A DNA stretch of 64,000 nucleotides from Membranipora membranacea (taxonomy: Eukaryota; Bryozoa; Gymnolaemata; Cheilostomatida; Membraniporidae): positions 16,924,948-16,988,947 of the forward strand of contig OU612071.1 in the NCBI GenBank assembly GCA_914767715.1, written 5' to 3'. The position numbers and the translations under genes were made by a program. Under the pieces are notes generated by a model. It saw nothing but the letters and a program-made list of their open reading frames with translations, was not told the DNA's origin and did no database searches. Shown here piece by piece: positions 22,162 to 60,375 of this stretch. Each line of letters opens with the position of its first letter. The stretch's first letter is position 1.

Positions 22162-22167
22162 TTTATT
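22162..22167 (-). promoter_or_regulatory. Polyadenylation signal AATAAA
   Basis: Minus-strand AATAAA about 23 nt after the caspase stop codon. It is the only such hexamer close to this end. Confidence 0.5.
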
Positions 22168-22189: not shown

Positions 22190-23478
22190 TCAGTGAAAGT
22201 TAGGGAAGAGATAGACAGTCCTGTCTCCTGTAAATGTACAGCTGATATCTGGTATCTGTCCCTTTGGTTTAGTTTTCTCTACACACTTTTCTAAACTCTT
22301 CAGTTCAACCTGAGCTCTAACCTGGAAACAAGTGAGATAGTTCTTAGTACAGGTGAACGGTTTCTAATATGGTTAATAAATTTGAAAGAACATTCGTTGG
22401 TTGTGTTGACTTAGATCACACAAAATCGCACTTTTTCTAGATAAAGAGAGAAACATAAGAGTGAGCCAAATAGTAGATTACTGACTGAGGTCTTGTCTTA
22501 CGCCAGGTATGCTTATATTTGATCAATTCCTTTACTTTCAATAACCTTTAATTAATATTTGTAAGGGGTGGAACTCTTCAACTTCCTTCGGTGAGGCTTA
22601 ACAGAACAAACCACTTAGAGAGTATAAGGCAGTCACCTATCTGGATAAACCTCTTTACATTAATGATTATTTTTGTGAGCTCTGGGCAGGATAGAGCTTG
22701 CAAAGGAAACGGATAAGTGGTGAGACTCTGTTACCAAGTGAACCCAATAAGATGTTTTACTTCATTTGGTAAGGCTCCACAGAAAAACAGCACATAAATT
22801 AAAAGAAGCCCAAACAAAGCCGGACAAACATCTTCAAATTAACAATTATTGTTATCATCTTTGGTCAGGATGAGCCTTTCAGATAACTTACATATTCAGC
22901 CAGTTGCCTCAGGTCAGCACAATGCCCGTATCTACTGAACATAATCACTATAGCTCTGATGAGCCAGGATCCATTTCTGAGATGTCTCATCGATCCAAAT
23001 TCTAAGAATATTCAGATAATTTATAAAATACAACATTTAAATATTAATGAAGACAGGTGCATAATTTGTTACCTTATCTGTATACTTTACTTGCGAAGGT
23101 GAAAAATGTTTTAATCTGGTTTGTTCTGTTGACGGAAGCTAACAAATTATGGGTGTCCTTATGATTTCTTCTGAACATATTTACAATCTATTGTTGGAAC
23201 ATATCAGGGTACATTATGATACAATAGCTGACAACAACTTGCAACTGATATCAATAACAATTTTACTTCAATTTACTCCTCACCTGGTAGACTGGACTTC
23301 AGTACAAGAAAATGTGACCGGCCCAGTGACACGTTTTGATCCTCAGTTGCATCATAGTTTTGCAAATTGCCAGCATCCCTGAACTCATTATCAGTGGTGC
23401 ACAGCTTTATTGGATTCTTTGGAATTGCAGGTTTCATTCTTGCCTCACCTCCGGCAGCCGAAATGTTATCCATTAGTC
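22190..23478 (-). other. Intersubunit linker and caspase p10 exons
   Basis: Exons 23284-23478, 22892-23001 and 22190-22321. The linker holds several Asp residues usable as cleavage points (CTTDN, EFRDAG, NYDATED). p10 follows: SHFLVLKSSLPEF, then SMRHLRNGSWLIRA, which keeps the second S1 Arg although the usual SWR is SMR. DLRQLAEYV and the C-terminal KPKGQIPDISCTFTGDRTVY match the caspase end strand (KQIP...lyF.P). The protein stops four residues after Phe-Pro, as full-length caspases do. Confidence 0.85.
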
Positions 23479-26400
23479 CTAAGAGATAATAAACCAAGTG
23501 AAAGAAAGACCTAGCATATAGGCTGTTGATACCATAGACTTAATAATAAACCTAGAGAGGACACTGTATGGACCATTAGCATTCAGGCACGTTGTGGGCG
23601 ACGTAAACACAATTGTTGGCGATGTAACGATATTGGAAATAGTAAAAGCAATGATGCTATCATTGAGTTCAGGTTTTGTGTCGATAGCTTGATCAATTTT
23701 GATTGGATTTTGGGTTTGAAAATCACAATAGATTAAGCAGCTCGTCCTAAACAGTTTGATACTAATTTATGACAAAAAAATTTTCAGAAATTTCAAATTC
23801 AAAATCCTATCCAAATTGATCGACTTATGAACAAAAATCCTGGACTATGGACAGTAACACAATGATTGCATCAATGCTTAAACAACTTCCAATGACGTTA
23901 CTTCGCCCCACAATTAAGTACCTCGCTCCAGCTGTGTGTAGTGTCCTGTCTAGGTTAATTATTAAGTCTACGGTTTATAGCCGCTTCACAGAAACAATAT
24001 TTTATCTGACTCATCCTCACCCATCTTGAAATTACAGTTATATAACTTCGAGTCTATGCCATACAACATGTAACCAATACTGTTATACATACACACATGT
24101 GACGGTGAATATGAGTCCTGTTAATTCAAATTTCTTCCTAATTCAAAAAGTTGCAAGACTGGCTCTAAGTAGTAGTAACATAGCTTTTATATCATAAAAA
24201 CTGTCGATGACTTACATGAGTTGTTATAGAATATAGTGAAAATCGGGGAAAATCTGCAAAATGCATATCAGTTGTTGTAAATGTGACTCACTCAGCTTTT
24301 TCAAACACTAACCTTTAGTACACTATCATCAGAAATAAGGGACCTACCTACCTACCAATAGAGATATAATATCTTACCGCCAGAACACGCCTGTACAATC
24401 ACCAGTTTCGGCTTATGAGCCATTGCAGGAAACTTTGTACCACCAAGAAGACCATAAATATCATGGAGGCGAACACTCCGATCGTCATTACCATGAATGA
24501 CACCGTCAGTACCATGTGACATGATGGCCAACACAAACATACCATAAATGTTGTGCTCTGGTCTCTTAGTCTCAGCTATGATGGTATCACAGATGTCCTA
24601 AAGCATTACAAATCTTGATATTAGTAAAAGAATGCTGCTACCAACACTTCAACAAATTTTAATTTTAAATATAAAATATAATAATATGGTAAATCCTCAA
24701 CATTCATGTAATCAACAAATTACCTATAATTTATACATATTTATTAGGTCAACCTTGCTAATCTGAAGCAATCAATTCATCATTATTATTGATTGGTAGA
24801 AATGAAATGTGACAGTCATAAGTCTCAAGCCATATTACGGATTATATAATCTAAGGTTTCACAGCGTGTTCATAAATTTTTCAAGAAAACACTTCTACTA
24901 ATATTTATTTTTCCCTCACATCTATGTTTAGGGTTACTTAGATATCTTCTTACCTTGGCAGTATAATCTTTATGTTCGCCAGCCACATCAAAGTGGAATC
25001 TCTCAAACATTATTTTGAGATTATTGAAGTCTTGCTCAGAGCCAGGACGTGGAGAGCTAGAATAAGCATTTGAGACTATGAGTACTCTACCTCTGATTCC
25101 TTCACTCATCAGGTATACCTGTGTAAAATGGGAGAAGAATCTGACCTAAATTTTAAATAGTAGGCATCCAATACTTCTTCATACTAATTAAGACTAAAAC
25201 GCAGTGATAACAGGCTGTATAGATAGCTCACATTCAACTCATGTATAAAAATTATTATGTATGCGATGCTAGATTCGATAATGATTCTGTTGGAATAAAT
25301 ATATTTTGGATAATACCTTGTCGTCGTTAGGAAACAGGTGTTGGATATAATCAGGCGTTGTGTGAGGAACGAGATCTATGTTCTCCGAAGCTGTGTCATC
25401 CATCAGAATATCGGGAGTGCGGAATGGATCAGAACCATGTCCATCATATCCAGCCTGGTTAGACTGCTGTAACCCCACATCTGTTGGGACTGCGATGAAT
25501 CCTCCACCTACAGAAATTTATGATATGCATAAATTTCTTAGGAGAAAGCAAATATTAAGATTCTATAAATGGCGTATTTTCGGTTGGACCAAGATGACAG
25601 TCAAATGCATAAAATTTAGGTATCTTATTGATGAAATTCACAGCCAATAGCTTTGTGTCTTCGCAACGGAATAATCTAGGAGATTACAAACTGGTATAAA
25701 AATACTACCTGCTGTTTCTCCACTCAACAGAGGCAAATGAGTTTCTCGGTAGCTTCTCAACTCAACAATTCTCTCAGGGGATAAGTTCTTGCCTGGAATG
25801 AATCAATAAGTGCTCCAATCAAGGAAGAAGAAAGGTTTACAACAAGATTTTCAGTTAGATCAATTTTCGCTTCATTAATCTTCCACAAACACTTTGCGCC
25901 TTCAGATCTAATTTCACTCACATGGTTTCAGAAAAACTGCTGGAACATCGGCACCTTCTGCAAGACAGTGAATTTTGTTTTTCTCGTCGCATTCCATCTC
26001 ATCAGAGAGCATCCATCTTGGGTTGTGAACCATATGAGGTCTCAATTGCTGGGTGAGCAGGCAGCTTCCGCAGCAAAACATGACAGCAGGGTGAGTGCCT
26101 TTCCACGTACTCTTCATGTAGGTAAGAAGGTTTTCTAAGCACATCCTCATCCTCCCCCACGATCGACAGAGGTCATGTATAGAGGTTGACACTTGAAGAG
26201 TGACTCTTGCTTCATGGTAGTGGTGAATGAAATGTGTGGTTGATCCTCCATGGAAAATCTTTGCGCCATTCCTGGCCACTGTACATTTATCATCAGGACT
26301 TCTTGATGAATCAAGTACTACTATGGAAAGCTCATGGTATATGTGATGTGGTAATGGCAGCATGCCCTCAAAACTTATCACAACTCTCAGTTGAAATTCA

Positions 26401-29400
26401 CCGTCAGATTTCCAACTCCTATCATTGTATTCCGTGGTGAAGTATGGGACAACATAGCATTGCAAACCATCCTGGATCGACACAATCGGGCCATGAATCA
26501 GCCTAAACTTCTGCAAGATTCCGAGGGATATATCTATTGGGAATCTTGAGTCTTCACCGATAACATGATTGAGGAGCTCTTCAGAGATCAACCCAGTTTG
26601 CTGGTAATTGACGACATGATTCTCAAATTCTATCTTTGTTGAAATCATCCTCACCTCATCCTCATATTCATACTCCTGTATGCGTTCTTCCCATTGCTTT
26701 GTGGCATCATGATTGAAGAGTACAGCTATGAGACTCCTCAATGATATGAAATCATGGAAAATGGGAAACTGAGGGCAGTCTTCTAGCCATAATAATCTGC
26801 CACATTTGTGCATTAATCTTAGCACAATTTTCAGTGACGGTATATTTTGCTGATAAAGCGACTCAAGAGACTCAATATCTAGGTACGAGGTTGCAAATGA
26901 CTCAATATCAGCAATCATGGCTAACCATAAAGGGGGCAGAAACTGGATGTGACCACATGAGATCTCATCTATGCACTGAATAATGCCATTGAACTGATCA
27001 AAGGCTGGATCATCTCCAACCACAAATATATTTGATCGTTGGAAAAGTTGTCTGTTTTCATCAGAGAAAACTCTAATCGCGGGTCCATGTTTCTCCTCTG
27101 CTGTGCGGTCTCTGATAGTAATCCAGGTTTGTCTACGTAGGAGCTCAACTGTGCGAATGAATACTTCCATCTGATAACTTACATCAGTTTCGGATAGCTT
27201 ATCTTTGTGGGTTAGCACCAGCAGGGGTGGGCCCAAATCAGGGTTAGCTAGGTAAAAGTGAGCTATCCAGTCAAAGCACAGTTGCTTTACCGCTTCACGG
27301 GGATCTTGTGTCGCTAATGTTTTGAACTCATGAAGGTTAACTACTATGACTGGAATGAAGTCCGCTTTCAGTGCGATTTGATATGTAGGGTGGTAAACTC
27401 CATTTCCACCTAGATCTATGATGCGTATTTCCTTTACAGAGTCCATTTTAAGGTTCTTATGATTGAACACAGTTGTGGTTTCATCACTTGGGTTACCTTT
27501 TATCCGCTTTGTTAGGTATCGCTCTTGTTTCCTTAGAGACTCTATGACACTTGTCTTACCTGAGTATGACTTTCCGATCACACCTACGGTTAGGGATGGT
27601 AGCTTTTCAAACCATTCAGCTTCACTATCGAGAAAGAATAACTTAATCGCTTGTAATCCCTGCTCAGCGATAGCAGAGGGTGGACAATTCAAGTTCAAAC
27701 ACCCATCGAGTTTTAGGTGAGTGAGAGCTTGATGTCCGGGAACAGGCAACACCAGTCTTTTCAGATGCATATTGTGGGCCAAGTTTATGCTGGATAAACT
27801 ATTTTGGGAAAGCCATGACATGGTTGAAAACTCAGTGAAACGATTTCCGTCGAGCATCAGTTCCTTCAGGTTGACAAGCAGTGAGAGCCTGCAATCAGTG
27901 AATATTGAGTCCTATTTACCCATTTTAACCATTAACACCATTGTGATATTGTAAATTGTAAGTAAGCTTTGAAATTACTTTGCGTTTATTATAGTAATGT
28001 TTAAACGGCACACAACCCATTCAATAGCTTTACTCTTGCAATATTTGAGGGTACAGCAATATTAACAAGGAACATTTAAATATTGAAAAATGGAACTCCC
28101 CTATTCAGGCTTAAAGTGTTTGTAAAGGATCAGGTTTTTTGGTATCATTCTAGAGATCTCAGTCTAGTTTAGAACATTATTCTATGTTAAAAAGCAGCCT
28201 GTGGCCCAGTTAAGACTTATTTGACCTCAAAGTTGGGATGAGAAGGTACTAAAAAGGTACTATTTTTTTTCTTTGGAGTTGTGATCACTTGTTGAAAATA
28301 GTACCTTTTTGGTACCTCAGATTATAATGGGAATATACAGTACTTTGTAACTAAGGCGTATTGTTATGACACAGTGGTTTTGATATTCTGCATGTGATAT
28401 CAAAACACACAGAATTTATCTATTGAATGAATGGGGAGATACAACATACAGTGGTGCGCGTACCACTGCACAACACACAGGTCTTCAGCTAGAAACCATG
28501 AGTCAAACGCTGTTTCGAGGCCTTCTCTAGTACAACCTCCTCATGGCTGGCCCCAGCAGCATGAAGCCACCCCTGTGCGTTGCTGAGCATCTCAATCAAT
28601 CTCATCGATCCCTCAGTGCATTTTGTAAGTTTCGGTGGTTTGACATAATTGGTGTGTTTACGCTGTTGCGCAACCAGGGAGGCTGCCAACTCTTCATTGT
28701 TTCAGTGCAACAATGTTCGCCCCATCACTCTCATGCTTATACTCTAAGCCAAACCAGTGCAGGGAGGTTTGCTTTCCATCAACTCATCGGCGCAAAGTCG
28801 CTTTCGTCAAGGCACCCGCCCCTCGTGCCACTCGTTCACTACTCAAATTCACCACATTGAGCATAGTACAACTCATACACAAGTCAGAGAGATGACTTGT
28901 TTGCGCTACAGCCAGTGGGCTGACTGTGATTTCCTGTCTCGCTCTGCCTGCTTTTTATGCGAGGGCCAAGCTTTTAATCCTATGTTTGTAAAACCTTAGA
29001 TCTAACTCAGACTCACTTTGATTTTCACTCTGCAGAGATTAAACTACTTTAATTTGAGTATTAAAGGCATAATCTTGCTTAGCCTTATACCCCAGGCAAT
29101 TTGCTTATCATCACTTAATCCCCTCATTCTAATCCTTACAAGGATTATAACAAAAGGAATTAAATGCTGGCCAACTCCACAAAACAAAGTGAGTGTGTTA
29201 AACCCCAGCTTACAAGTAATAGGATTACTTAGCTTTTGTCTTCACACAGTGCTGTTGCCATATCCATGCAGATGCGCTTTCTGCCTCATGTACTATGTTT
29301 TTTGTGGCTTGTTTGAGTGCTCTTCCTGAAAGCCCAACTCTAGTCAGAAATTTGGTAGCTGATCTAGCCATGAATCCACGGCAGCCAACTTCCACTGCGA

Positions 29401-32400
29401 ATAATTCGCAATTCCAACCTTTGTCTTGGCATTGTGTGACCAGATCTTCGTATCTTGTCAGTTTTCTCTCATGCGCATATGAGAGATTTTCTTCCCAAGG
29501 CACCGTCAATTCCATCAGTATTAGTGCTTTTTCTTTGTCAGACCAAACAATTAAGTCTGGTCTTTGGTTCGTGATCACAATATGCTGTGGCATGCTGAGC
29601 TGCTCTGTGAGGTCGCATCTCACCTGCCATTCTCCGCTGTTCATCAATTCCTTTTTGCGCAAAATCTTTTCACGCGCTTCACCACCAGCATTAGCATATT
29701 CACACTTCTCCGTGACATATTTACACAACACTTTCAGGACTTGATTATGCCTATACGTGTATCTTCCCAGGCTCTGTTGGCAATTCGACAGTATATGTCG
29801 AAGTGTGCCCTTAGCCGAGCACTCGGCGCATTTCGAGTTCTCGGTCAAATTCCAGCGTTCCAGGTTTGCCGGGGTCGGTAGTTGATCATAAGCTGCACCA
29901 ACCAGAAAGCTGATCCTTTGTGGCTCCATCGACCACAATTCTGTCCATTTGAGCTGACGCTACTCAACAGACTCCCAACAAGTCCACCTGCCTTGTTGGG
30001 CTTGGCCTACAGCTTGTGTCTGGCGGCGCTCCTCTTCCATCTTGCGCACCTCATCAACTACCATCTCCCGTCTAACCTTTGGGCTTTCCTTTGAGAACCA
30101 CCGGTTTGCTTCCCAGCCGATGCCATGACGTGCAGTTGTCACAGCACCAACAATCTCACTTATCTCCAGTCGAGATTTGGCATCTCTGACAGTCTCTGTG
30201 ACAGACCATTTTTTACCAGTGTCAAGTGTTGGAGCACATTCCCTTATCACCTGGTCTGGTGACTCGTTCAACATCATATCCAGTCTCGCCTTTGATGTTT
30301 TGTACTCTTCCACAAGCGATTTCATAGGTAGTGAAAGAGTAAACGAACTGCCATACAGTGCATTAGTGTTGAAGCTCCTTGGAACTCCAAGCCACTTACG
30401 CATGTGCTTGTTAATCATTTGCTCCATTCTCTCAACTGGTGTTAGCGGAATATCATAAACTGTCAGAGGCCACAGAATTCGAGGCATGAGTGCAAAGTTG
30501 AGAATCCAGGCTTTGTATTTGCCAGACAGACCACATTTTTCAATCGCGTCCAGCCCTGTAATGAGTTGCTTTTTCACCTCGTTTCCGCGAAACCTGTCTG
30601 TGAACGGTAAACTATACCATCTTCCTAAGCTCTTCACAGGCTGCTCTGCAAGCGTGGGAATACGCTCTGTTCCTATGAAGTAGGTATTTGGTACAGGTTT
30701 GCCTTTACACAAAGACAGGGACCGGCTCTTGCTAGGTTTGAATCGCATCGCACATCTCTCTATCAACTCATGCAGTCTATCGATTGAAGCTACAACCTGG
30801 GCCTTATCTGGTGATATTATTGTAATATCGTCCATAAAGGCCCTCATCGGCGGTAGTATCTGGTTATTCGCAACCTGGATCCCATTCACACTGCCTTGTG
30901 AATTCCGTATAACTATCTCCATCACCATAACGAATAGCAAAGGTGATATAGCACATCCCATAGGGATGCCTACTGCCAGCTCTTGCCAGCTCGTGGTAAA
31001 GTTCTTAGTAGTGAATCGCATTTTGAACTTTTTATAGTAGCGCTCAACCATAATCCTTAGCCTGTCGGGCACCCAGAAGTGTGATAGTGCGAGGTCAATT
31101 ATGCTGTGCGGTACAGAACCATAGGCATTCGCCAAATCCAACCAGATTACCTCAAGGTTCGATTTTGCTTGTTTAGCAGACTTTATTGCTGACCAAATCA
31201 TGCTCACATGCTCAAGACATCCAGGGAATCCTGGGATGCCTGCCTTCTGAACTGATGGATCAATGAATCCATTGTTCATAAGATAACCTGTGAGGCGTTT
31301 TGCCAGAACGCTGAAGAATATCTTGCCTTCTACATTTAGCAGTGATATTGGTCTAAACTGCCCTAGGTCCTCCGCCTTATCCTCTTTCGGTATATACACA
31401 CCATTCGCACAACACCACTCATCTGGGATCTTGCCAGACTTCCAGATTTGGTTGAGCACTTTTGTCAAGATCTCCAGTATGCCTGGACATTTCTTGTATA
31501 GCTTATAACTGATGCCATTAATTCCTGGGGCACTTTTGGCACGTGCCTTGGTAACTACATGTGCAACTTCTCCAAGCTTGATATCACCCATCTCAAAACT
31601 GAAACCTGGAGATGTTGGACGTTTAAGCCCAGCAATATCAGTGTTCACCTCGCTCTTGTTACCGTACACTTTTGCCAAGTGTGCCTCAACTTCTGCCTGA
31701 CTAGCCTTGAGCTCGCCGCTCTTACTCTGCTCAAACAACTTCTTGGCAAATCCGTATGGATTTTTCATGAAATTGTTCAAGTTCTTTCGCTTCAACTTCC
31801 TCTTCTTCCTCAAGGCCTCAGCTCTGGCTAGCCTTCTTATTCGTTCCTTGACATCATTAAGCAATACAGAAAGCCCATGCCTTTCTGATTCAGCGCAATT
31901 TCTCATTCTCTCTCAGCGCGCGTTGCTGAGTTCTCAGTTTGCCTTTCTCATATTGGCGTCTATTTGGTATTTTGGTGCACTGAGTTCCACCTCGTTTCGC
32001 AACTAAGCCAAACTTCTCCTCACAAATTGAAAAGAGGATAGCAGGCAGTTGTTTGGCCTTTTTCTCACCGCTTCCAGTCAATGCAGAGTTGAGAGCAACA
32101 ACTGCATATTCGTCAAGCTCACGCCAAGTCTTGACACTGCTCATCTTTGGCCACTCAACCTCCTGCCTTTCACAACCGCTCCCATGATGCTCGGTGGGTG
32201 TTTGAGAATTGGTTGTCTGCCCACTGTGGTTTTCAACCTGGGGCAGTGTACCATCCGTCTTAGGTGCAGAGTTATCTACACTGCGGTTCTATAACACCAC
32301 TTCGCATCCCTTCTTAGTTCTGTGTATTTTCATACCACGCTCAGTTTTGAAACCCCTCTGGCATACGAGGCATGAATACAAGGCATTATTTATCTGTCCC

Positions 32401-35400
32401 ATGCGGTTTAGCTGGTAAAACGGGTTAGTGTATGACATTTCATAATTCAATGACAAAGCTAACAATCTAAATTGAACATAACAAAAATTTACAGCTCTAG
32501 CTCATCCGACAGTGAGAATGAAAATTACAGGGAGATTAACAGCTCTAGTGTGAGCAAGATTGAATATCATTTAGGAGGCATTTGTAGCAAAACGACGCCG
32601 AGTCCATGTGATTATCAGAGGGAAAATATCTCTGAGGTAGTCACACCACTCAAGTTTAAATCTGTATGATTTTGGCCACTGGAAATAACCCACAGTGCTC
32701 TGGCAGATACAACATTTTCTGTTAACCATGGTTACTGCTCGAGATAGAAATTGACAATATAAAGGCAGATCAATACATCGCTACGTATTTCAAGGTTTTG
32801 TTTACATTAATATGATGAATAAATGAGATTGTGGCTATGACATTCCAATCAAACTCCGTCTTCAGCCCGCATGAAAACCAGTGATATGCTTCAATTATTA
32901 GCTTCATGAATAGCGGCTTTCAATAGAATTTCAATGAAAGATACAAATTGTGTGTGTTTTTCTTGAAAATATGTATTTCCAAATCGCACAGAAATCTAAA
33001 ATAAATTCTTTGTAAATCTCGACATTTCAGTCATTAGGATGATGTTGAAATCCAAAGCATGCAATGATTAATACTGAGTGATTTGAGGTTTTGACAATCT
33101 TTTCAACAATTTTTGCAAGTATTCTGATGTTTAAACACTGAAGGTTTTTTTGGATAAACTGTGTTGTTTACATTGTTTAAAAACTAGAAGTTACAAGTCA
33201 CAAAGCAAATTCAACTCAATAAATTTGTCATCTAGTTGTATCGGACTTGTAATGGGTGATGGGTGATGGGTGATGGGTGATGGGTGATGGGTGATGGGTG
33301 GTGGGTAATGGGTGATGTAAAATGCAAATGAATTTGACTGCCTCCTAAAGAGGAGTATTGCTAATTGTGTTAGCAGTGGGATACCTGGAGAAACTTTCTA
33401 TTTTTTCATTAGATCTTGTCCATCTGTGTGCATCACAGATACTCAGCACATCTTAACATAGACTATCAATATTACTGACTGAGTGCAGCAGTTCTTATGA
33501 GAGCACATGTCACTGCACACATCATTCACTTAGGAAATTAATTTGTCGAGTTTTTGAGTTATTTCGTCAGTATGGATCTGATTTGGGAGGCTAGTGTTGG
33601 GTAAATTGCAAGATTTGGTACAAACTATAAAGCATTGCATGGACCATTTTGGCTGAATCTGAAATAAGCAAGGCTTTGTCAGCAGGAAGAATCAATTGCT
33701 CCATTATAATCTTATTTTAACAGAGCAAACAAGCGCATCGCATCGGTCTAAGATGAAAATCACTCATATTTATGACAGCTGACAGGGAATGCGTCAAAGT
33801 CAAAGTCAAAGTCGTTGATTGTAATGTACAGTGGATCTTCTAATCTTTTCTTCGACATGGGCTCATACAGGTTGTTTTGATTAGCGGTCTCAACTCATCA
33901 AATAGTGTGTATACAAATTATAGAACTTTCTTTTGAACTTTTATGTCACCAGACAGACTTGTGAGTGACTTTGTCATTTATTTGCAAAAGTTGTTATCTA
34001 ACCAAAATAGTCATTAATATTACAGTATTTCCCCAATAACAGGCTCATCACAAATCGCCTGGACTAGTTGGGCAGTGCATGAGTAGGCAACTCAATGTTG
34101 TTAACTTATAACCCCCAAACCTACCAGACCAAATAACCCTGATGACTAATTTTATATGCAAGTGCATGTGTGACAGCTGTCTTAATCTGATTTCAAGCTC
34201 AAAAATGATACCAAGTAACCTGTTCCTTTACAAACACTTTAACAGGCTTCTCTCAACTGCAATCTTTGCGACCAGGGAATAACTAACTTGCGGGCGAGGA
34301 CCAAATATCAATTAACTTTCTGTCATATTCTCAGTGTATAGCTAAAATACATGGAAAATGCTGACTCCAAATTGTTCAGTGATTAAGCAGATTAGGTTTA
34401 CAAGGTTTTGCTTGGGATGTCAGTACTATATTTTTAGATGAGGGATCTTTGATATAACTATGAATACATACTGTAGAGGCACTCTAGAAAGCTGATTCCT
34501 GCTCAAATCAATTGTCTCCAAGTTCTCTAGCTTAGCTATCCTATAAAAGATAGCAATTACAGTGTAAGCTGGTTAATTAGAATCCTGTTAATTCGAAAAT
34601 ATCTGTTAATTCAGACACCTGACTGTGTGTGTGTGTGTTTGTGTGTGTTAATGTTCAATGAACTACAGTGCACTCCTCTTAATTCAGACTTTATATTTCA
34701 GCACTCAGAATTCAAACAAAGATAATTGGTCCCATCAGCCAAATGTTGATTCATTCTTATTTAATTTGATTCAAACTCTGCATAATTAGGACACAATTTG
34801 ATGGTCCCTAGAGATTTGAATTGAGTGGAGTGTACTGTATATAATTATATCTGCATAAGAAAAATTATATAACATAAAAATTATATTATATATGCAGCAT
34901 ATTATATTTACAGAATAAGAAGGAGGTCAAAGAATGAAGGATGTGGAAGAGAAGTTTTAAAGAGAACCTTCTTATGCACCAACCTGTCTGTGAATACTTG
35001 CAGCTTGTTACCTGCCATTATGAGCGTTCTCAACTGTTTAAGGTCACCAATACTACAACAGCAAGATGTGACAAAATTCACAAAACAAGCAACGATAGAC
35101 AATAGAGAAACATGAGTCAGCTGTTAGTGAAAAATATTTTTATTCTTTACCTTTTCTGATTCATACTAGTTACTGTAATGATTCGGTGTAACTATTTCTA
35201 TCATTCAATACATGACAAAAGCTCTATTTATCCACAAAACTGAAAGTTTTGTGTTTATGATAAACACATGTGTATACAAAAACCCATAACCAGTGCCTCG
35301 TATCACTTTTTCAAAAAGTCTTTTTGAAAAAAAATAGAAAAAACGGCTGAATCACAGTCCTGTGTCCTACCATGTATGTGTACTAAAACCAGATGAGGGT

Positions 35401-38400: not shown

Positions 38401-41400
38401 CTATGACATTTAAAATACATTGAAACAGGACTAAGACAGTACTATAAGTCTCGTTGCCTACCCCTAAACTATGCCCTTGAAAAAACTAGCAGTTGATATG
38501 ACGTCATCGATTGGATTGCAACATGATTTTGGTATGTTTCCATACATTGTATATAGGCGATAGATAAAAGCGCATCTTTATGTTCTTGTCACGAAAATAA
38601 CAGATGTAATAACATACAAATTACAAGATACAAGTTAGCCATTTCAATAAATGACAACTAGTGGACAGCGTGCAGGGAAAACAACGTGCACTGTCACAAT
38701 TACCATTACAAAAAATGAATGTTCACAGATAACAGTGAACCAAGGTGTAAACTACAACGATTCATTAGTTGTACCTGATTTCATTAATGCTTGACCATTG
38801 TTTTTCTGGTGAATATACAAAGGGTCACTGTTTCTCTTTCAGTATTTCATTACCATTTCAGTTTTTGCACTAAATTCCTGCTTGATCCCATCTAGCCATC
38901 AGAAATTAAGTCCCTCATCGTAAACAGATGTGAGTGCCTTTGTGGATGATCATCATTAATTTACACAATTATTTTGGGCGGTTGCACTAGCGTTGATTCT
39001 ATATACTTATGTAGTCTATGTTCAATCCAGCACTTTTTATGTTCATTCCAGGGTTTTCGACTTTCATACCAGTCTACTTTCATTCCAGCTAATTTCAATC
39101 CCGTCGGCGTCCATTCCAGCCGACGGTCATTCCAATCCGCTGCGCACACCAGCATATGATATGATCAAATTCTAGGGTGCATGACCTGATATTCCCATTT
39201 GTATTTTTAATTGATCACAAATGAATTTTTTTGTTTCGCCAATTCTTGTTTAGAATTGGATGAAATTTTTAAATTATTGGTTTTCAATCAAATCGCTTTA
39301 TTCTTCTGAAGAGAAGACAAATACTATTCTGCGTTTAATCAATATTAAGTCACTAACAAGGAGTGAGTGAGTGAGTACGAGCTGAGAGCAGGAAGATCCA
39401 TTGCGAAATCCTCCGGTAAACCTGGCGAAGTGCACAAGGGCGCCTGGAAAACAGGGAGCACTGTGCGAATTTGAAACAATTTAAATAGAAATAGATCACA
39501 TTGTTGTTTTTTCTTTCTTCCTCTAAAATGTTACACCTCAGTATTGCAGGTAGTTGTCCCTTCTTTTTACAAGTGGAAACAACTCTAATGTTTCAAACTG
39601 TTGATATGGTAAAAGCAGGGAGGGTGGGATATACCTCTCCCACCCTCCCTGGTAAAAGCAGGAAGGGTCCCTGGTGAAAGCAAATATTTGTTGAAACTTT
39701 ATTATCCTTCATTGTCATCTCGGAAAGGATCCTGTGCGTAAATATACATAGAGGGGAAATTTCTTTACATTGTTTGGTGGTTGATTGATAAAAGCTTGTA
39801 AAACAGTAAAACAATCTTTACCGAAAGCTACTTGGCGGATAACATATGATGTAAGCTTAATTTTGTAGAGTGATATGGCCAATAACCGTAATATGATATT
39901 CTCTTCAGCTCGGGCAATGATTAAATGGCTCAAAACTTTTGAGAATTGGCATAGGCACCATTAATTTGTTTTGTCGAAAAAGAAGTTTATAACAAGGAGG
40001 CATTTTTGATGAAATCAACCACTTGGACTAACTTGTGCAATAAAAAACTCAAATCAAAATCAACCCGTTACTTATAAAATCGACTCACATCTCAATTTCC
40101 AAAGCTAAAACTTTCTCCAGTGTTGGCTGGATGTGAACATTGTTAACGTATTTGTGAATGTGAACAGCTTAGCTTGCAGAGAGGCTGCGAAGGAAAAACT
40201 GAGCGGTGAAAAATTTGTGTGGTGGGAAAACAGCACTGTGGTAAATTGTCCTGTTGGGAAAATTGTTTGGTGGGAAATTGTCCTGTTGGGAAAAATGTTT
40301 GGTGGGAAAACGGCCTGGTGGAGAATGGCTTGTTGAGCAAATGCCTGGGTGGAAAAATGGATTGCTGGGAAAACGTCCAGGTGGGAAACTAGATTGGTGG
40401 GAAAACATGCAGGTGGGAAAATGGCACAGTGGGAAATCAACCAGGTGGGATAATGGCTTGGTGGGAAAATGTCCAGGTGGGAAAACGGCAGAGTGGGATA
40501 ATGGAAGGTGGGAAAATGGCTTGGTGGGAAAATGACATTGGGAAAATGGGGTGGATTGGTTCAAAGCTATCTCACTGCTATACCATGTTGCTTTGCATAA
40601 CGCTTGCAAGCTTCAATCACTAAGGTCCCATGCTTCGATTTTGTGGTTCACTCCAATTTCGAATGGTGAGAATCCAGTGGAGGCATTGTGTGCAAGCGCT
40701 AACCATTCAGCCATGCCCCCAATTAGGAAATAGGTCGAATAAACACGGTATGGATATTCGCGTCCAAAAAGTCATTCGTCACAATCGAAATTTGATTTTA
40801 ATACCGTTTCCATGGGGCGATTACTCCCGAAATCCTTACAAAATCGACACATGGGAACATAGTGATTGAGTGAGCAGTGAGCTGATCTGACAATCAATTC
40901 ATTGTTGTGTGCATCCTACAAGAAGATTACATCAGGACTTCATCCTCAATACCACGGAGCAATAATGGGCAAACAGAATGGCCGCTGGAAAGAAAATGAA
41001 AAGTTTTACCGCCTCCCTCCCTATTTAGTGATATATCGCCTTTTCAATTTCTCAGGAACTACTTGTCTCATCTCAAAAATTCCTTCACTGACACGTTGCC
41101 AGTAGTCTGACTTATGTTTAATATCGCAATTTTTTTTCAAACCGCATGTTCGCAACTTGATTAATTGTACATTAACTAAAATACATTGAAAACATATAGG
41201 CAGCCATGGGCAAAATGATGCAGTAAATTATGTTATGCAAAAGCGTGATGAAAATCTAATCAGTATTACATGCAAATCACATTGTGTACAACAATGGATC
41301 ACCTTTTTTAGGTTATTGTTTAGCATGGAAAGAGAAATGTTTATGCTAATAACTTCCCTACTACTGAATTTATCATCAAACGCCACGATCAAAACCTCGG

Positions 41401-44400
41401 AAATACTCTCCAGTTTAATGGAAGCTAGTGTGTATCATATGTTGTTTAACCTATTTTCAGGTTTTTGGCTGGAAAAATGTGCATGTTTTGGACCAAATAA
41501 AGCTGTCTCAAGATCTCAAGATGTAAAGCCATAATCAACAATCGCTTCGATCAAAACCTAGACAATCCCCTGTTATTCATCATGCTGACAACAAATTTGA
41601 CTGACGTCTTTCTGAATTTCTGATTTTTGGCTGGAAAATTTTGACCTAAATAAGTTAAAATTTGGGTTATTATCTGATACAGTTGTGACAACAAGGATCT
41701 GTAAACTGTCAAGATTATTGATTCAAGTGACAGTACAAGACCAAAATGGTATAATGAATTGGAAATTCTAGTTTTTGCATTATTGGGGTTGCATGTAATG
41801 AGGGGTCAGAAATGGCCCTAACACCATTGCAAAAATCAGTTTCTCGAAGACAGGAGGCCTAAAATCATAAAGTTTCACCAAAATGTCACTCCTCCAGTTA
41901 GTGCCATGCCTCCTCTATATGGTGAAAGCATAAACTAATCAAATACCTCAAAAACAAGGCACAGACAGCACAATTTAAAAAGGGCACTTTTTGCCCAAAA
42001 AAGAACTTCCAGAGGTCACTGCAACTCAACGTAAAACATTTGGGAGGTTTAAACTGTGAAAATAAATATTAGACATGATCACCAATACAATATTAAAAAG
42101 TTTTAAAAAGCGATATATCACGTTAATTTATAATTTTTCACAAAAACTTGATTGTAATATCCAAACTAGATTGAAAAACATTCATAGGTTTTGTAGAACG
42201 GTGTTGTGACTGCAGATTCACTATGACAAGTATGACCAGCTTCTAATAGACAGACCAGTCTACTAAAAAAGGAGAGTATACTAGCTCAAACAGAATCCAA
42301 AGCTCTGTAAAACCATTCTAAGAATTTTTGACAATAGGCAAAAGCCGACCTGTTCAACTGTAATAAAATTGATTATTAATAATCAGTGTAAAATCCCATA
42401 AGCAGTAGCTCTCAACTGGTATGGGATTTTACATTGATTATTAATAATCAATTTATTACAGTGGAACAGGTCGGCTTTTGCCTAATAACACCTTGTCTAT
42501 TACATCTTTTTTCTCCCTATCCCTCTCTGGATCGCAGTTTTTCCATTTCTAGCAGTCATGACCGTGATAGTCGGCCATTTATTTTTTTCTTAATTGATGT
42601 TTGATGCCTTACAATCTCTTTATAATTTGTTGTAATTAAACCAAAATAAAATGTCTTGAAGGGAACAAACCATTTAGTTGTAAATTAAGTTGACGGAGGA
42701 AAAATAAAGATATTACTCATTAATTAAACTCCAATAATACACAAATGATAGATCAACTATAGCGCATGATGTAAGTAGAGTGGATAACATACCAATATCA
42801 ACATGGAATGCTCAGTAACTTAGTATACAGACATGCTCCCACCAATCTTTGGCCTGAATCCTAGACTATATAATTATCTCCCCAGCCTCAGTCATACCAT
42901 AATGCTCAATTCTTCGTAAATAAAGTATCTAGAATCCACAGGTAAATTAGTATGTAAACTCACCATTCAGGCACACTGAGTAGGTCATTGTTGGACAGAT
43001 CCAAGAACTCCAACTGCTTCACATCACTCAGTCTTTAAACAGAACATAACACAAATCAAATCAGCGGATGTGAGATTGCTATGGTAAAATTGAGGTATGG
43101 TGAAATAAAGGCCAAAATCTATCAGAAAATCAAAAATTTTGGCTTTTATTTCACCATGAGGCTTAAATGTGAGAGCAACTGTCGCAATCGCACTACCCCT
43201 GAATTGATAGCATTCAGAAGAGAGGTAATGGAATCTAGTTGTTTCCCAAACGTTCAGAAATTGGAGGCTGCCATCTTGCTAAAACAGGGTATCACAAATG
43301 TGTGATACATTACTTTCTCCATAACTGTGACTATTGATGCATAAAGATTATAATTATACATACAGATGGCTTGATGAAAATGTCACATACAGGAACTGAT
43401 ACTTAAGAAGAACAATTGCACACAGCTGGTCTCAACTGCTTCTATTAGACCATTTCCTTAAAATGTTCTGAGCATACTAGATTCTGTTTAAAATGAAATG
43501 ATTATGACAACATGGTAGAAAAAGCTTCATAGTTTTATTATTCACTTGCCAAATGGACCCTCAAAAACATTGTAAATGCTATTAAGAGTTCAGGAAAAAC
43601 TGCCTGAAAAGTTGCCACTGCCTTTAATAATCTTTTAAGGGTTATGGTGACAAGAGAATCGATTCCAGAGTGTATGAAGATAAACACTAAGAGCATGCAA
43701 TTGAAAGAGTTAACTGCATGGCGGCTGCGGCTCCATACTGAAGCTGAACAACTTGCAAATAAAAGAAAATTAAAACCTCCCAGTAAATGAATTCACAGTT
43801 CGCATAAGTTCTGCTTGATACTTACCGTGGAGAGATGATTTCCATATTGCAATTCATCAGCTTCAATGTCTGGAGCTGAGGCATTGCAGCAAATATATGA
43901 CCTTGTCTACAACATATCCAATTACAATCAAGTAATAACAGTCACTGAGTGTTTACCTGATTAGAAATATAAATTGAAACATATTTGATTCAGAGGCAAC
44001 ATTGAGATATTCAGATGCTTGATCTTATAGCTGTACCAAAACACAACAGACTCCTGTATCCGAGGACTGATGACAATGATGTACTGGATAAAAGTTATCA
44101 TCAGTCAAGACTTCATGTTAACCTCCCCGTGGTCAACACTGGTAAATGGAGATTTCCAGGCTAACAGCATTGATGATCTGCGTGATGATGACCCAGACAG
44201 AAATACATCCAGAGAAGCAACAATCTGCGAGAGCCTGATAGGCTTCAATTCCTGTTCCCATACACGGTCATTTATTGCGGCTACTGAACTACTGGGCTAG
44301 TCTTGGTCTATCCTGTCTATCAGTGTTAGAGAGGGTTGATTGGCAACTGACAAAATTTTTCTCAGCAAATCCAAATGAGCCACAAAATTCAGGAAGAAAA

Positions 44401-47400: not shown

Positions 47401-49639
47401 ATCTAAGTCTATTGTCAAATGTTTCCTATTGGTGTCGGTAGGTGCGGCTCATTACTGTGTTGTAAAATTTGAATTGGCTCATTGTTTCAAAAAGGTTGGG
47501 CACCCAGGCGACTAGTACATATTCATGTGTATACAGCATGTATACTCCGCTTTCACATACCTAACCCAAGTCAGTGTAACTGTTACACCAAGGTAGGATT
47601 ATACCAGTCTCCTCTAACATCGTGCCTAATATGAATACCTATTTCATACTTACATCTCTGGGGGTACTTGATTCCCACAGTGTGACAAGACGAACCACGT
47701 AATGCTGGGAAAATAACTCAGAATGGCAGCACCCAATCTGTAAGAAAGATCAAAAGTATTTCTCAGATAGATACAAGAAATTTTAATAACTTTGCTGAAA
47801 AGTAATGATAAACAATGGAGGAAGGCTGAGATATTGTGTCTCATGCCCGTCCAAGAAACACAATAAGTCAATATTTTTTCAGCGCTGGAATGCCTTAAAC
47901 TTGATTGTGAATTAATAAAAATGATCGAAATGGTTTGCAGCAGCCAATAAGATGATTGGTGATTTTTATTACTGAGCTGGTGGTTGAAATTTTGTCACTT
48001 ACCCTTGAAAGGATATCAAATATAGCTTGGTAACATTCTGCAGGAGCTCAGCTACCTCTACTGGCAATCTGTAAATGGTTGATTGAAATCGTTGATTAAA
48101 TTCAGATGTCATATCACTTGCCACATCCCGAAGCATGGGCAGCAAAATTTAGTTGCTTTAAGGGCTAGGCCGCAATGTCTGCGCCAGTTTGATCTCAGTT
48201 TGCAGGCGGGTCGGAGCACACCTGGGAGCCAACCAAACCCAAGTAGTCGATGGACTGTAGTGGGATTAGAACCAACAACCTCCATCACTTGCGTGATGAA
48301 GGACAGGCGCTCTAACCAGCTGAGCCACCTCCTACTCCTAAGATGAGATATTTTCTCCAAGAAATGCAAGAATTTCTAAAAGGTTTGGTTATAAGGAATG
48401 ATATACTATGAAAGAGGGTTGAGAAATTGTGTCTCGTCCCCGTCCAAATAACACAGTCTGTCAATATTTTTTTCTGTGCTGAAATGGCGGAAGTTTGTTC
48501 GTTAATTAATAAAAAATGATTGGTAAGGTCTGCAGCAGGCAATAAATAGATTGGATTGATTATTGAGCTAGAAGTTAAAACTTTGCCTCTTACCCTTGAA
48601 AGGATATCAAGTATAGCTGGGAAACATCCTGCATGTGTTCAGCTACCTCTACCGGCAATGTATAATACACTCTCATATTGGTAATGGAGGCTGTGTCTAG
48701 CTTATCTATGACATATTTGAGTGTGTGCCGCTCCACATCATTCTTGATCCATGAAATATCTTGTGCGGAATCTCCTTCCTCCTTGAGGCTAACCCACATC
48801 GCTGATGGGTCTAATTCTGATCAGAGTAAAAAGTGAACTTGAAATGCTCGTGCTCAAAGTATCGTTTTATTTTCTATGAGTTAATTGGATAATTTTGGTA
48901 ATTATTCTAATGTTGAAGAGCAACTAGAAGTATGTAGGATGTATAAATTGAACATTGAAAGTTTATTCCGGACTTTTATATACTAGGAACTAATCGTTAA
49001 TGAGAGCTTGTGTAAAGGAGTTTGGATTTGGACACTGATTGGCTAAAATTTAATTTGTGGATATTTGCGTTCCTTAGGGTTTTCTCAGCGTAAAGCCACC
49101 AAAATAAACCAGGCCAAGTGAATCAGGGTTTCCAATGAATCCATTGCATCGACCCTTCTATAACTTACAGAGACTTTCAAATACGGACTAGACGCAATGC
49201 ATAGAGTCCTGAGTCGTGAGGCAAGCACCCTGGTACAACACACACTAAAAGTTATCAATACAATCAACAAACTAGTTATGCTCATTGGGCAACAAACTAG
49301 TTATGCTCATTGGGCAACAAACCAAGAAATGTCTCATCATGATCAGAAATGAAATAAATGTGTTACATACTGTTTAGTTAGGAGTTGACTGACCTTGTCT
49401 GTAGAGCAATATGTTCCGGAAAGGTTAGAGTTGTCAGGCTGAGTCATATCAAAAGAACCACTTTGTTTGAAAACCAATGTGATACACTCTATATGGGGGT
49501 ACACTAACAGCTGGTTAGTGGAAAATGCTCAATTCATATAAATATACAACTCACCAAATTACACTATCCTACCTCTGAATTGACGAACATCAAAGTAATT
49601 TAATCCTGAGCGACCTGTCGTGTTACGCTGATGTCGAAC
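22190..49639 (-). CDS. LRR-Roc-COR-caspase fusion (ROCO-caspase), 5' incomplete
   Basis: Exons, 5' to 3' on the minus strand: 49573-49639, 48594-48816, 48003-48068, 47654-47737, 43826-43906, 42964-43032, 34984-35052, 34472-34540, 25922-27888, 25709-25792, 25317-25507, 24954-25118, 24378-24597, 23284-23478, 22892-23001, 22190-22321. All 15 introns are GT-AG and every phase matches, giving 3792 nt, 1263 codons plus TGA (22190-22192). A minus-strand AATAAA lies at 22162-22167. Domain order in residues of this partial protein: novel N-part 1-90; about eight LRRs 90-330; Roc GTPase ~340-520; COR ~560-898; linker to ~995; caspase p20 ~1000-1120 and p10 ~1150-1263. Expected action, by family: a GTP-switched intracellular platform that brings caspase domains together for activation. 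Other readings: two genes joined by me, or an alternative ending at the in-frame TGA just after the COR exon (25914). No transcript was available to me. Confidence 0.8.
24378..25118 (-). other. Caspase p20 (large subunit) exons
   Basis: Exons 24954-25118 and 24378-24597. The fold begins IRGRVLIVSNAYSS and SPRPGSEQDFNNL, matching the caspase G-x-A-L-I-I-x-N...R-x-G-S-x-x-D start with the S1-pocket Arg. The catalytic His is in MSHGTDGVIHG (codon 24514-24516) and the catalytic Cys in IVQACSG (codon 24385-24387). QACSG departs from the common QACRG/QACQG/QACGG at the fourth position only. Asp-specific caspase, not metacaspase, by these motifs. Confidence 0.88.
25317..25792 (-). other. Linker exons between COR and caspase
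   Basis: Exons 25709-25792 and 25317-25507 (phases 1 and 1, then 0) encode about 92 residues. They are a helical piece (NLSPERIVELRSYRETHL) and a Gly/Asp-rich, probably flexible piece (DGHGSDPFRTPDILMDD, HLFPNDDK). Asp clusters here could be processing sites releasing the caspase. No CARD, DED or death domain is visible. Confidence 0.6.
25922..27888 (-). other. Last LRRs, Roc GTPase and COR domain in one long exon
   Basis: A 1967-nt exon entered in phase 2 from the LRR cassettes (LKELMLDGNRFTEFS, LTHLKLDGCLNLNCPP). Roc signatures: P-loop GKSYSGKTS (27549-27575), switch-II-like G3 IIDLGGNGVYH (DxGG), and G4 THKD (about 27200-27212), the THxD form typical of Roc rather than the NKxD of Ras. 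The following ~340 residues fit COR: hydrophobic winged-helix-like segments such as FLPPLWLAMIADIESF, LRLMHKCGRLLWL and DISLGILQKFRLIHG. The exon ends CCA-T before GTGAGTG. Reading through that donor would add only two codons before TGA. Confidence 0.85.
28236..28320. repeat. Short MITE-like palindrome
   Basis: GGTACTAAAAAGGTACTATT at about 28237 is inverted at about 28297-28318 as AATAGTACCTTTTTGGTACC. It lies in the intron left of the R2-like element. Confidence 0.5.
29225..29959 (-). pseudogene. R2-like ORF, CCHC knuckle and RLE endonuclease part
   Basis: In frame with the RT part across TAG 29960-29962. It carries CAECSAKGTLRHILSNC (CCHC knuckle) and then RPDLIVWSDKEKALILMELT-VPWE, the P-D...E restriction-like endonuclease core of site-specific non-LTR elements. 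It ends at TAA or similar near 29225. The endonuclease nicks target DNA for target-primed reverse transcription. Confidence 0.75.
29960..31906 (-). pseudogene. R2-like ORF, reverse transcriptase part
   Basis: 648 codons. RT motifs are visible in order: SAPGINGISYKLYKK, GQFRPISLLNVEGKIF, VIWLDLANAYGSVPH, GIPMGCAISPLLFVMVME and the catalytic MRAFMDDITIIS. The box is FMDD rather than the FADD/YADD of most LINEs, a form found in some restriction-endonuclease-type elements. The upstream 31907-32144 portion continues in another frame. Confidence 0.8.
31890..32400 (-). pseudogene. R2-like ORF, N-terminal zinc-finger part
   Basis: CLVCQRGFKTERGMKIHRTK plus the following Gly-Cys (about 32300-32375) form a C-x2-C-x12-H-x5-C finger of the DNA-binding kind found at the start of R2-type proteins. 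A TAG at 32290-32292 interrupts. The frame then continues through SSVKTWRELDEYAV to about 31910, where a 1-nt shift leads into the RT frame. Confidence 0.65.
32495..32669 (+). CDS. Possible terminal exon of an unknown plus-strand gene
   Basis: After TTTACAG, 58 codons are open: SSSSDSENENYREINSSS..., ending TPLKFKSV and TGA (32667-32669). The Ser/acidic composition and the absence of repeats look coding. Upstream exons could have been displaced by the R2-like insertion 75 bp away, or the frame is chance. Not recognised. Confidence 0.3.
33250..33312. repeat. GGGTGAT heptamer repeat
   Basis: About eight tandem copies of GGGTGAT, the last ones degenerate (GGGTGGT, GGGTAAT). Confidence 0.9.
35535..35620 (+). 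repeat. tRNA-like SINE head
   Basis: GGGTGGCCGAGTGGCTAGTG is a good A box and GGTTCAGTTCTCGG a B-box-like element 40 nt later. The spacing resembles a Ser/Leu-type tRNA, but stems are degenerate. It directly precedes the 103-bp array, which suggests both derive from one tRNA-derived element. Confidence 0.55.
35640..36195 (+). repeat. ~103-bp tandem array, each unit with a tRNA-like B box
   Basis: Units start ACCACAATTATAACATG at 35657, 35761 (variant), 35866, 35967, 36070 and 36172, with periods of 101-105. Each contains GAGTTCAAATCCCGGTGAA, close to the RNA polymerase III B box, followed by a T-run. The last unit is cut short. Confidence 0.85.
39020..39145. repeat. Degenerate TTCATTCCAG minisatellite
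   Basis: Irregular copies of TTCATTCCAG(N5-8). Read on the minus strand the core is CTGGAATGAA. Confidence 0.6.
40205..40555 (+). repeat. GGTGGGAAAATG minisatellite
   Basis: About 23 degenerate units of roughly 15 bp, such as GGTGGGAAAATGGCTTG and GGTGGGAAAACGTCCA. Long open frames on both strands here (up to 146 codons) are produced by the repeat. Confidence 0.9.
42334..42487. mobile_element. Hairpin MITE, ~150 bp
   Basis: Arms of about 62 bp (AGGCAAAAGCCGACCTGTTC ... CTGATTATTAATAATCA ... AAAATCCCATA) pair almost perfectly around a loop of ~20 nt. It lies in a Roco-caspase intron, just left of LRR exon 42964-43032. Confidence 0.8.
44465..44645 (+). pseudogene. RTE-like LINE endonuclease fragment
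   Basis: AELSGKTAGKCSESGVALAI followed by RNELVTKLIKEPKAVSDSMM resembles the APE-endonuclease segment of RTE-type LINEs (…ESGVGFAI…L..LP.G.sdRLM.LR). No RT is attached. It is an isolated relic between LRR exons. Confidence 0.5.
44852..47508 (+). mobile_element. hAT DNA transposon, degenerate
   Basis: Ends CCTGGGTGCCCAACCTT are inverted at 44852 and 47508, each followed by GAGCCGCACC/GGCTCATT subterminal motifs. Size is about 2.66 kb. It lies in the intron between LRR exons 47654-47737 and 43826-43906, opposite to the host gene. An 8-bp target duplication is not clear. It belongs to the hAT lineage that supplied SCAND3/GTF2IRD2-like genes. Confidence 0.75.
45130..47250 (+). pseudogene. hAT transposase remnant
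   Basis: Recognisable pieces in order with frameshifts and stops between them: near 45150 EFNDGWVDKYFVRQVQGKPV-CLIS (N-terminal region); near 45600 SQTSADAHRYIEMLNDSQKM then CDMAFLVDILAKLNDLN; and at 47075-47230 the C-terminal dimerisation motif CESLFSKLAFIKNKYRSQIT-DVHIKQLLMVAS. The middle, 45900-46900, is badly decayed. Confidence 0.7.
47750..48665 (-). repeat. Tandem duplication of an LRR exon and its introns
   Basis: 47750-48068 and about 48380-48660 are diverged direct copies, including intron text. Both contain ACCCTTGAAAGGATATCAA and CTCTAC(T/C)GGCAAT, and the intron motifs GTCTGCAGCAG/GTTTGCAGCAGCC. Both copies keep a donor and an open frame. The SINE lies between them. Confidence 0.75.
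48109..48345 (-). mobile_element. tRNA-derived SINE
   Basis: The minus strand begins GAGGTGGCTCAGCTGGTTAG (A box) and has GGTTCTAATCCC (B box) at about 48262-48275. The anticodon arm does not pair, and ~150 bp of non-tRNA body follows, so it is a SINE, not a tRNA gene. It sits between the two copies of the duplicated LRR exon. Confidence 0.7.
48594..49639 (-). other. First recognised exons of the ROCO-caspase gene
   Basis: Exon 49573-49639 (VRHQRNTTGRSGLNYFDVRQ) joins exon 48594-48816 in phase 1. The second exon encodes LDPSAMWVSLKEEGD, a charged helix (DVERHTLKYVIDKLD) and the first LRR-like unit (LPVEVAEHMQDVSQLYLISF). No start codon is assigned, since the frame is open into 49639 and an upstream acceptor is present. 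The N-terminal part matches no domain I know. Confidence 0.6.
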
Positions 49640-60246: not shown

Positions 60247-60375
60247 GCAAGGAGTTGCTCCAAGTCAAGAGTGAACAATATCTCTTTGTTATGAACAAGT
60301 ACTCTTTGTACTGAACAATAATACTCTTTGGTACTGAACAAATACTCTTTGACACTGAACAAACACTCTTTGTAA
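60080..60375. repeat. Two adjoining minisatellites at the LINE 5' end
   Basis: 60080-60250 is built from (TCCAGTTTGTTTCCAC)n-type units; 60255-60375 from ~20-bp units of ACTCTTTGTACTGAACAA type. The first is translated in the LINE frame as repeated Trp-Lys-Gln-Thr-Gly units. Confidence 0.8.

Follow-up and report, generated by a model that had tools for sequence, protein, structure and literature searches.

Roco proteins owe their importance to LRRK2 and Parkinson's disease, and how the nucleotide state of Roc-COR leads to effector output is still debated. Initiator caspases, for their part, are activated by dimerisation or proximity. Roco proteins are described as dimerising via COR, and a monomer-dimer cycle that goes with nucleotide has been proposed (PMC6337361, in the excerpted text). 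In amphioxus, LRRs-caspase and TNFR-caspase hybrid genes were proposed to shorten the path from recognition to apoptosis (PMC2575513, in the available part). Among the ROCO genes of brown algae, 3 of 111 have a peptidase domain (IPR009003) at the C-terminus, and the same source, in its available text, gives as many as forty ROCO domain combinations for animals (PMC11378527); a ROCO-caspase might be among those forty. Among the papers returned by our searches of open-licence literature we recognised none on a ROCO-caspase protein, and the accessible portions of papers on caspases and immunity in corals, bivalves, amphioxus and placozoans contained none.

Here we describe a gene in the window, by which we mean the whole 64,000-nucleotide stretch of Membranipora membranacea DNA that was analysed. 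Its predicted product joins LRR-Roc-COR to a caspase, that is, known modules in what reads as a new combination. Judged from sequence, we hold with high confidence that this architecture is real and that the gene is a member of a large family.

Gene model and predicted protein

We rebuilt the gene from splice signals and reading phase. It occupies 22190-49639 on the minus strand with 16 exons, 15 GT-AG introns, no phase conflicts and no internal stops. These are the coordinates of the original prediction, which had joined sixteen exons without a phase conflict; exon 1 is the doubtful one. The spliced product has 1,261 residues and comprises LRRs, Roc, COR, a Cys tail, a linker and a full caspase. 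Exon 1 (49573-49639; all exons lie on the minus strand) is open and in phase with unremarkable codon usage, and may be 5' UTR or no exon at all; the gene thus extends from 22190 to ~48810, or to 49639 if exon 1 is real. As exon 1 is without an ATG, the likely start of translation lies in exon 2 (48594-48810), where the first ATG of the model is residue 27. The product of exon 2 resembles the N-terminus of the Watersipora subatra protein P0005 in an unscored alignment judged by eye. Exon 3 (48003-48068), a phase 2-2 repeat, is a local exon duplication in which the last part of exon 2 (LPVEVAE...LYLISFQG) recurs almost unchanged. Exon 4 (47654-47737) is LRR-like, and LRRs are encoded by exon 5 (43826-43906) and by three exons of 69 bp each, exon 6 (42964-43032), exon 7 (34984-35052) and exon 8 (34472-34540). 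Exons 4 to 6 are also phase 2-2, and exons 7 and 8 are kept in the tandem copy L011 as well.

Exon 9 (25922-27888) holds the last LRRs, the Roc GTPase, COR-A, COR-B and the Cys tail (C-x2-C ... PC), and a phase-1 splice donor, GTGAGT (25916-25921, minus strand), follows the T of its last Cys codon. The linker is formed by a mini-exon, exon 10 (25709-25792), and by exon 11 (25317-25507), which has coding-like codon usage and an end that is conserved in Watersipora P0005 and P0006. The caspase begins in phase 0 with exon 12 (24954-25118; p20 start with an S1 Arg) and continues through exon 13 (24378-24597; p20 with the catalytic His, SHG, and Cys, QACSG), exon 14 (23284-23478; intersubunit region and p10 start) and exon 15 (22892-23001; p10 with an S1 Arg, SMRHLRNGSW) to exon 16 (22190-22321), which encodes the p10 C-terminus and ends on the stop codon TGA (22192-22190). 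The first polyadenylation-like signal past the stop is an AATAAA at 22162-22167 (minus strand); it starts at 22167 and lies 22 bases beyond the TGA. By codon usage taken alone, exons 1, 3, 4, 5, 7, 8, 10, 13 and 16 are unsupported at 5%; these exons rest on phase, motif, homology and paralogs.

Intron 8 contains a LINE-type reverse transcriptase (29225-31912, minus strand; RVT_1, E 5.6e-23) with an adjoining zf-RVT-like stretch. The same intron measures ~460 bp in L011, so this insertion is not common to that copy. A second LINE-like element, an endonuclease with a PHD finger plus a reverse transcriptase, lies at 56875-60264 (minus strand), and tandem arrays occur at 9235-9540 (13-bp unit, 23.5 copies, 100% match), 35654-36198 (103-bp unit, 5.3 copies) and 40248-40532 (32-bp unit, 9 copies). 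A prokaryotic origin was rejected in view of the introns, the LINEs and the 339 Mb genome.

All three Roc motifs that had been claimed could be located in the protein: the P-loop (GKSYSGKTS, residue 346), DxGG (DLGG, 399) and THxD (LTHKD, 466). The HMM search proposed alongside them gave a split outcome. Peptidase_C14 matched the spliced protein at E 6.4e-34, covering profile positions 1-229 of 233, while Roc stayed under the Pfam cut-off (16.3 of 27 bits for the 1,261-residue protein) and the Pfam COR models had no match to the window protein. The same scan matched four LRR_8 stretches and, with E up to 1, found no NACHT or NB-ARC domain in the 1,261-residue protein, which sets it apart from NLR/STAND proteins; in the four relatives scanned, COR-A also lay under the Pfam cut-off. 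The identification of Roc-COR proposed here comes from profile comparisons, with one bacterial ROCO protein and with Roco chains in the PDB. An hhalign comparison of ten sequences with the bacterial-type ROCO P0010, for which Pfam COR-A and COR-B are precomputed, gave 99.5% (E 1.2e-22) over 546 columns, which span LRRs, Roc, COR and the C-x2-C tail. Exon 9 together with three relatives matched prokaryotic Roco chains in a profile comparison (4wnr, E 1e-11). The protein thus has what marks the ROCO family, a Roc with P-loop, DxGG and THxD and, by alignment to P0010, a COR directly after it. At the end of exon 9 (25922-26100, minus strand) a C-x2-C ... C pattern is conserved among the exon 9 relatives, and P0010 also has C-x2-C at the aligned place; this pattern is possibly a zinc knuckle.

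The caspase part matched CED-3 among solved structures (3.3e-17). In that alignment the catalytic His 1071 (SHG) and Cys 1114 (QACSG) as well as the S1 residues Arg 1012 (PRPG) and Arg 1187 (SMR) all aligned. Together with the C14 coverage (229 of 233 positions) and the TGA stop, this bears out the catalytic pair, the two S1 Arg and the natural C-terminus that had been read from the DNA. By sequence, then, the domain is a caspase, with p20-p10 over its whole length, the catalytic His and Cys and two S1 Arg. Its active site reads QACSG rather than QACRG; the remaining four tandem copies have QSCS at this place, as does L029. Met takes the position of the usual Trp in SWR. The Pfam scan of the window protein found no CARD, DED or death-domain prodomain; unlike in classical initiator caspases, the N-terminal part is LRR-Roc-COR. 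Asp sites are found in the linker, at LMDD, ENID and PNDD.

The junction between exon 9 and the caspase

The reading of one fused gene depends on what lies between exon 9 and the first caspase exon. Two adjacent genes duplicated as a pair could give a similar picture: a ROCO gene that finishes in exon 9 or beyond it, followed by a caspase gene whose start lies in exon 11 or 12. In-frame ATGs occur at ILMDD of exon 11 and at VYLM of exon 12, and the Watersipora P0005 annotation ends before the caspase. The junction itself argues the other way. The introns between exon 9 and the first caspase exon measure 129, 201 and 198 bp, with the two small exons between them, and no AATAAA or ATTAAA on the coding strand starts between 24910 and 27989. 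The donor at the end of exon 9 sits at the identical phase-1 place in 12 of the 12 paralogs checked (T/GT in 11, A/GT in L027), so exon 9 is probably not terminal. Exon 11 looks coding: the fraction of 3000 null windows (45 codons) that reached its codon-usage score was printed as 0.0, and its pN/pS among the five tandem copies is 0.44. Exon 10 is neutral in the same null-window test. At the acceptor side, the start motif of the first caspase exon was found in 14 of the 26 loci scanned, and all 14 have a phase-0 AG, directly before the motif in eight and one codon upstream in six.

Proteins from elsewhere were compared at the same place. In the relatives P0001, P0002, P0003, P0004 and P0007 divergence sets in immediately past the conserved PC, where, judged from protein sequences alone, their residues would read as a T/GTRNG donor. 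Watersipora P0005 and P0006 have no such Cys at the end of exon 9, and P0008-P0010 were unusable for the donor comparison. P0006 is one model across the junction, and its linker end and caspase start align with the window (42% over 67 positions, E 7e-11, two-sequence search). Given the shared donors, the short introns free of poly(A) signals and the linker homology across the junction, a caspase with its own promoter and start codon is unlikely, and we regard the pair of separate genes as very improbable. A single LRR-Roc-COR-caspase gene is well supported by the exon structure common to the paralogs and by the Watersipora protein.

An assembly artefact, or a ROCO gene and a caspase gene that happen to be neighbours, would also place the two parts side by side. 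We found nothing in favour of either and give them next to no credence: there are five colinear tandem copies, dozens of diverged loci on nine contigs and a counterpart in another species. In particular, an assembly break between 25300 and 25920, where the original prediction would have been vulnerable, looks unlikely, as the five colinear tandem copies contradict it. The artefact was rejected on the colinear copies, the diverged loci on nine contigs and the Watersipora counterpart, and chance neighbourhood on the genome-wide arrangement described below (60 of 67 Roc loci against 0 of 67 in a control arrangement).

Relatives in the same genome and in Watersipora

On C7 the minus strand carries five tandem copies, and the four besides the window gene have a Roc exon 94-95% identical to that of the window. 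Linker and caspase exons are present in all five, and there are no stops in exons 9-13 in the parts read. Over the 10 pairs of copies pN/pS is 0.66 for exon 9, 0.44 for exon 11, 0.29 for exon 12 and 0.65 for exon 13. Parts of exon 9 range from 0.30 to 0.70, and neither the Cys tail nor exon 10 has a synonymous difference. The ratio is below 1 wherever synonymous differences exist, in exon 9 only moderately. Since the copies show few differences, we claim retained function only and not diversifying selection.

We then turned to the whole genome (339,339,785 bases, 18 contigs). It contains at least 67 matches to the Roc exon (67 scored of 233 candidates), at least 145 to Peptidase_C14 (515 candidates, 140 scored) and at least 150 to caspase exon 13 (212 candidates). 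Of the scored Roc-exon matches, 60 of 67 have a same-strand caspase match downstream at a distance of 828-2,165 bp when both caspase lists are used (45 of 67 within 6 kb downstream with the first list alone). As a control we counted caspase matches lying no more than 6 kb away upstream or on the opposite strand; 0 of the 67 Roc matches had one. When 14 of the 22 loci missing from the first list were read as 2.7-kb pieces, caspase exons were present in 13 (weakly in L044, E 2.4e-4) and none in L040. In L037 and L041 the DNA shows the first caspase exon, and exon 13 is matched downstream at 7.2 and 9.9 kb. Matches and DNA reading combined, 62 of the 67 Roc loci clearly have a caspase and one (L044) weakly. 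The fusion is thus not peculiar to the window locus; there are about sixty such loci in the genome, and in another species Watersipora P0006 runs from LRR-Roc-COR into the first caspase exon, bearing on the search for this architecture in related genomes that was proposed at the outset. Four Roc exons with no listed caspase within 6 kb downstream cluster at G000:C3:25620376-26019240; L040, the one member of this cluster that was read, has no caspase within 2.7 kb.

Seen from the caspase side, 47 of the 145 C14 matches and 60 of the 150 exon-13 matches have a listed Roc match upstream. When 20 caspase places were fetched with ~8 kb of upstream DNA, the Roc exon was present in 12 and absent in 8, so caspases without this Roc exon also exist in the genome. 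The best C14 match of the genome, L012 (G000:C4:18270899-18271708), is a 350-aa open frame covering profile positions 1-232. It has no Roc match in ~8 kb upstream; caspases lacking this ROCO part coexist with fused ones.

In the 12 paralogs the catalytic His and Cys are kept throughout; a text pattern missed three, in which alignment showed both residues. p10-like pieces were seen by alignment in five of the 12 (L015, L017, L021, L025, L028), with weak scores, and in 0 of 12 by text pattern. L021, L024 and L025 have several LRR-like matches at separate upstream places. In L025 the Roc exon gives two matches that overlap but lie in different frames (4-394, 389-625), and this is probably a broken copy. 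Distances between Roc parts and between caspase parts correlate (Mantel r 0.84, n=10 loci; 0 and 1 of 20000 permutations reached r in two runs on the identical set). The set comprised the window and 9 of the 12 paralogs, including L025 with its short Roc frame; L011, L014 and L024 were dropped by the His/Cys pattern. Such a correlation is expected from joint duplication of both parts, and common descent of the loci also contributes to it.

A profile search returned nine proteins, among them P0005 and P0006, NCBI proteins of the cheilostome bryozoan W. subatra. Their relation to MFHAS1 consists in their NCBI names (MFHAS1-like, MFHAS1 homolog); P0006 is stored under the MFHAS1 name with both Pfam domains precomputed. 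P0006 has LRRs, Roc at 27.4 bits (cut-off 27), COR-A under the cut-off and the start of C14 at 844-895 (E 1.2e-8). Like the window protein it runs LRR-Roc-COR-linker-caspase start, in the same order and with the first caspase exon ending at the same place; unlike the window protein the model stops there, and identity over the LRR-ROCO part is 28%. P0006 ends in TSKV, and the window has TAK followed by GTAAGA at the end of the first caspase exon, which fits a model that reads into the intron. In P0005 the linker is present and the caspase absent. As the P0006 model goes no further than caspase exon 1, and P0005 ends directly ahead of the caspase, there may be ROCO forms that lack a working caspase. 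The linker piece KDEKRKLKEYVSAKQTATAS is present in P0005 and absent from P0006, and the two also differ by the caspase start, which suggests isoforms or paralogs with and without the effector. With the linker and caspase portion (residues 735-1116 of 1,116) as query, a protein search gave nothing at E 1e-5 among 2,476 candidates; its sensitivity was limited, as it also missed P0006, which carries only ~52 first caspase residues. No relative was found among GTDB and IMG/VR contigs with a 4-sequence Roc alignment as query.

Putative function and comparison with known systems

We consider it likely that this one gene encodes a cytosolic LRR-Roc-COR-caspase receptor of an expanded family, activated by dimerisation and with an adaptor-free death or inflammatory output as its putative function. 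As Roco proteins dimerise by COR and initiator caspases are activated by dimerisation, a terminal caspase could be activated by dimerisation of the receptor. By what is known of Roco proteins and caspases, the LRRs, encoded for the most part as single-repeat exons, would receive the signal, and Roc-COR would then change its nucleotide and dimer state. This would bring two C-terminal caspase domains together for proximity activation as in initiator caspases, and autocleavage would be possible at Asp sites of the linker and of the loop between the subunits. The outcome would be cell death or inflammatory cleavage independent of a CARD, DED or death-domain adaptor. By analogy, activation of the caspase by Roc-COR dimerisation without an adaptor is the most likely mechanism.

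The fused protein could be real and its caspase serve otherwise, as an internal processing protease that frees the ROCO part by cleaving the linker, or as a regulator rather than a death effector. The several Asp sites in the linker suit such a role, as does the Watersipora paralog annotated without a caspase. The kept catalytic residues and whole C14 coverage do not decide the matter, as an effector needs these too. We think this role unlikely. With a receptor that triggers death or inflammation still preferred, the question is what it would respond to. We infer a part in defence against microbes, since the proteins have LRRs and their genes are numerous and stand in tandem arrays. Bryozoans are colonial and undergo programmed polypide regression, and the family might instead serve development, tissue turnover or allorecognition. 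The named relatives come solely from one bryozoan, and tandem variable receptors would suit allorecognition as well; we nonetheless judge these roles improbable next to defence.

Tentatively, and with somewhat more doubt than belief, an NLR-like repertoire could have arisen in an animal lineage, made up of dozens of caspase receptors that are gated by GTP, need no adaptor and unite sensor, switch and executioner in one polypeptide. Such a repertoire, diversified by tandem duplication and single-LRR exons, would form a self-contained inflammasome system independent of NACHT and NB-ARC proteins. If true, a third nucleotide-switch family besides these two would have been recruited in animals as a direct caspase platform. 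A natural caspase fusion would also offer a sharp read-out of Roc-COR, as dimerisation would become proteolysis. The family appears to be a previously undescribed set of self-contained receptors with a putative role in death or immunity, large enough for study as an immune or self-recognition gene family.

How does it compare with what has been described? LRRK1/2, DAPK1, MFHAS1 and prokaryotic Roco proteins share the LRR-Roc-COR core with the window protein, and the C-x2-C tail is common to the bacterial P0010; their effector is a kinase or none, whereas the window protein has a caspase. The brown-algal ROCO genes are likewise LRR-ROC-COR, with one LRR per exon, and are expanded and proposed as immune receptors, but their peptidase entry is IPR009003, the word 'caspase' occurs 0 times in the available text, and they belong to algae and not to animals (PMC11378527). 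Placozoan ROCO genes, with at least 17 putative members in Trichoplax, are also animal ROCO genes tied to the cell-death machinery; unlike the window gene, they are described with adaptor-type CARD and death domains, and no caspase domain is mentioned in the excerpted text (PMC4104024). Like the window protein, the amphioxus LRRs-caspase hybrids have LRRs directly joined to a caspase with QACXG; compared by description, they differ in that the accessible part of the source mentions no Roc-COR GTPase ('roc' 0 times; PMC2575513). No protein named amphioxus LRRs-caspase was among the matches of our protein searches. By analogy of layout, these amphioxus hybrids are the nearest precedent for the adaptor-free logic proposed here.
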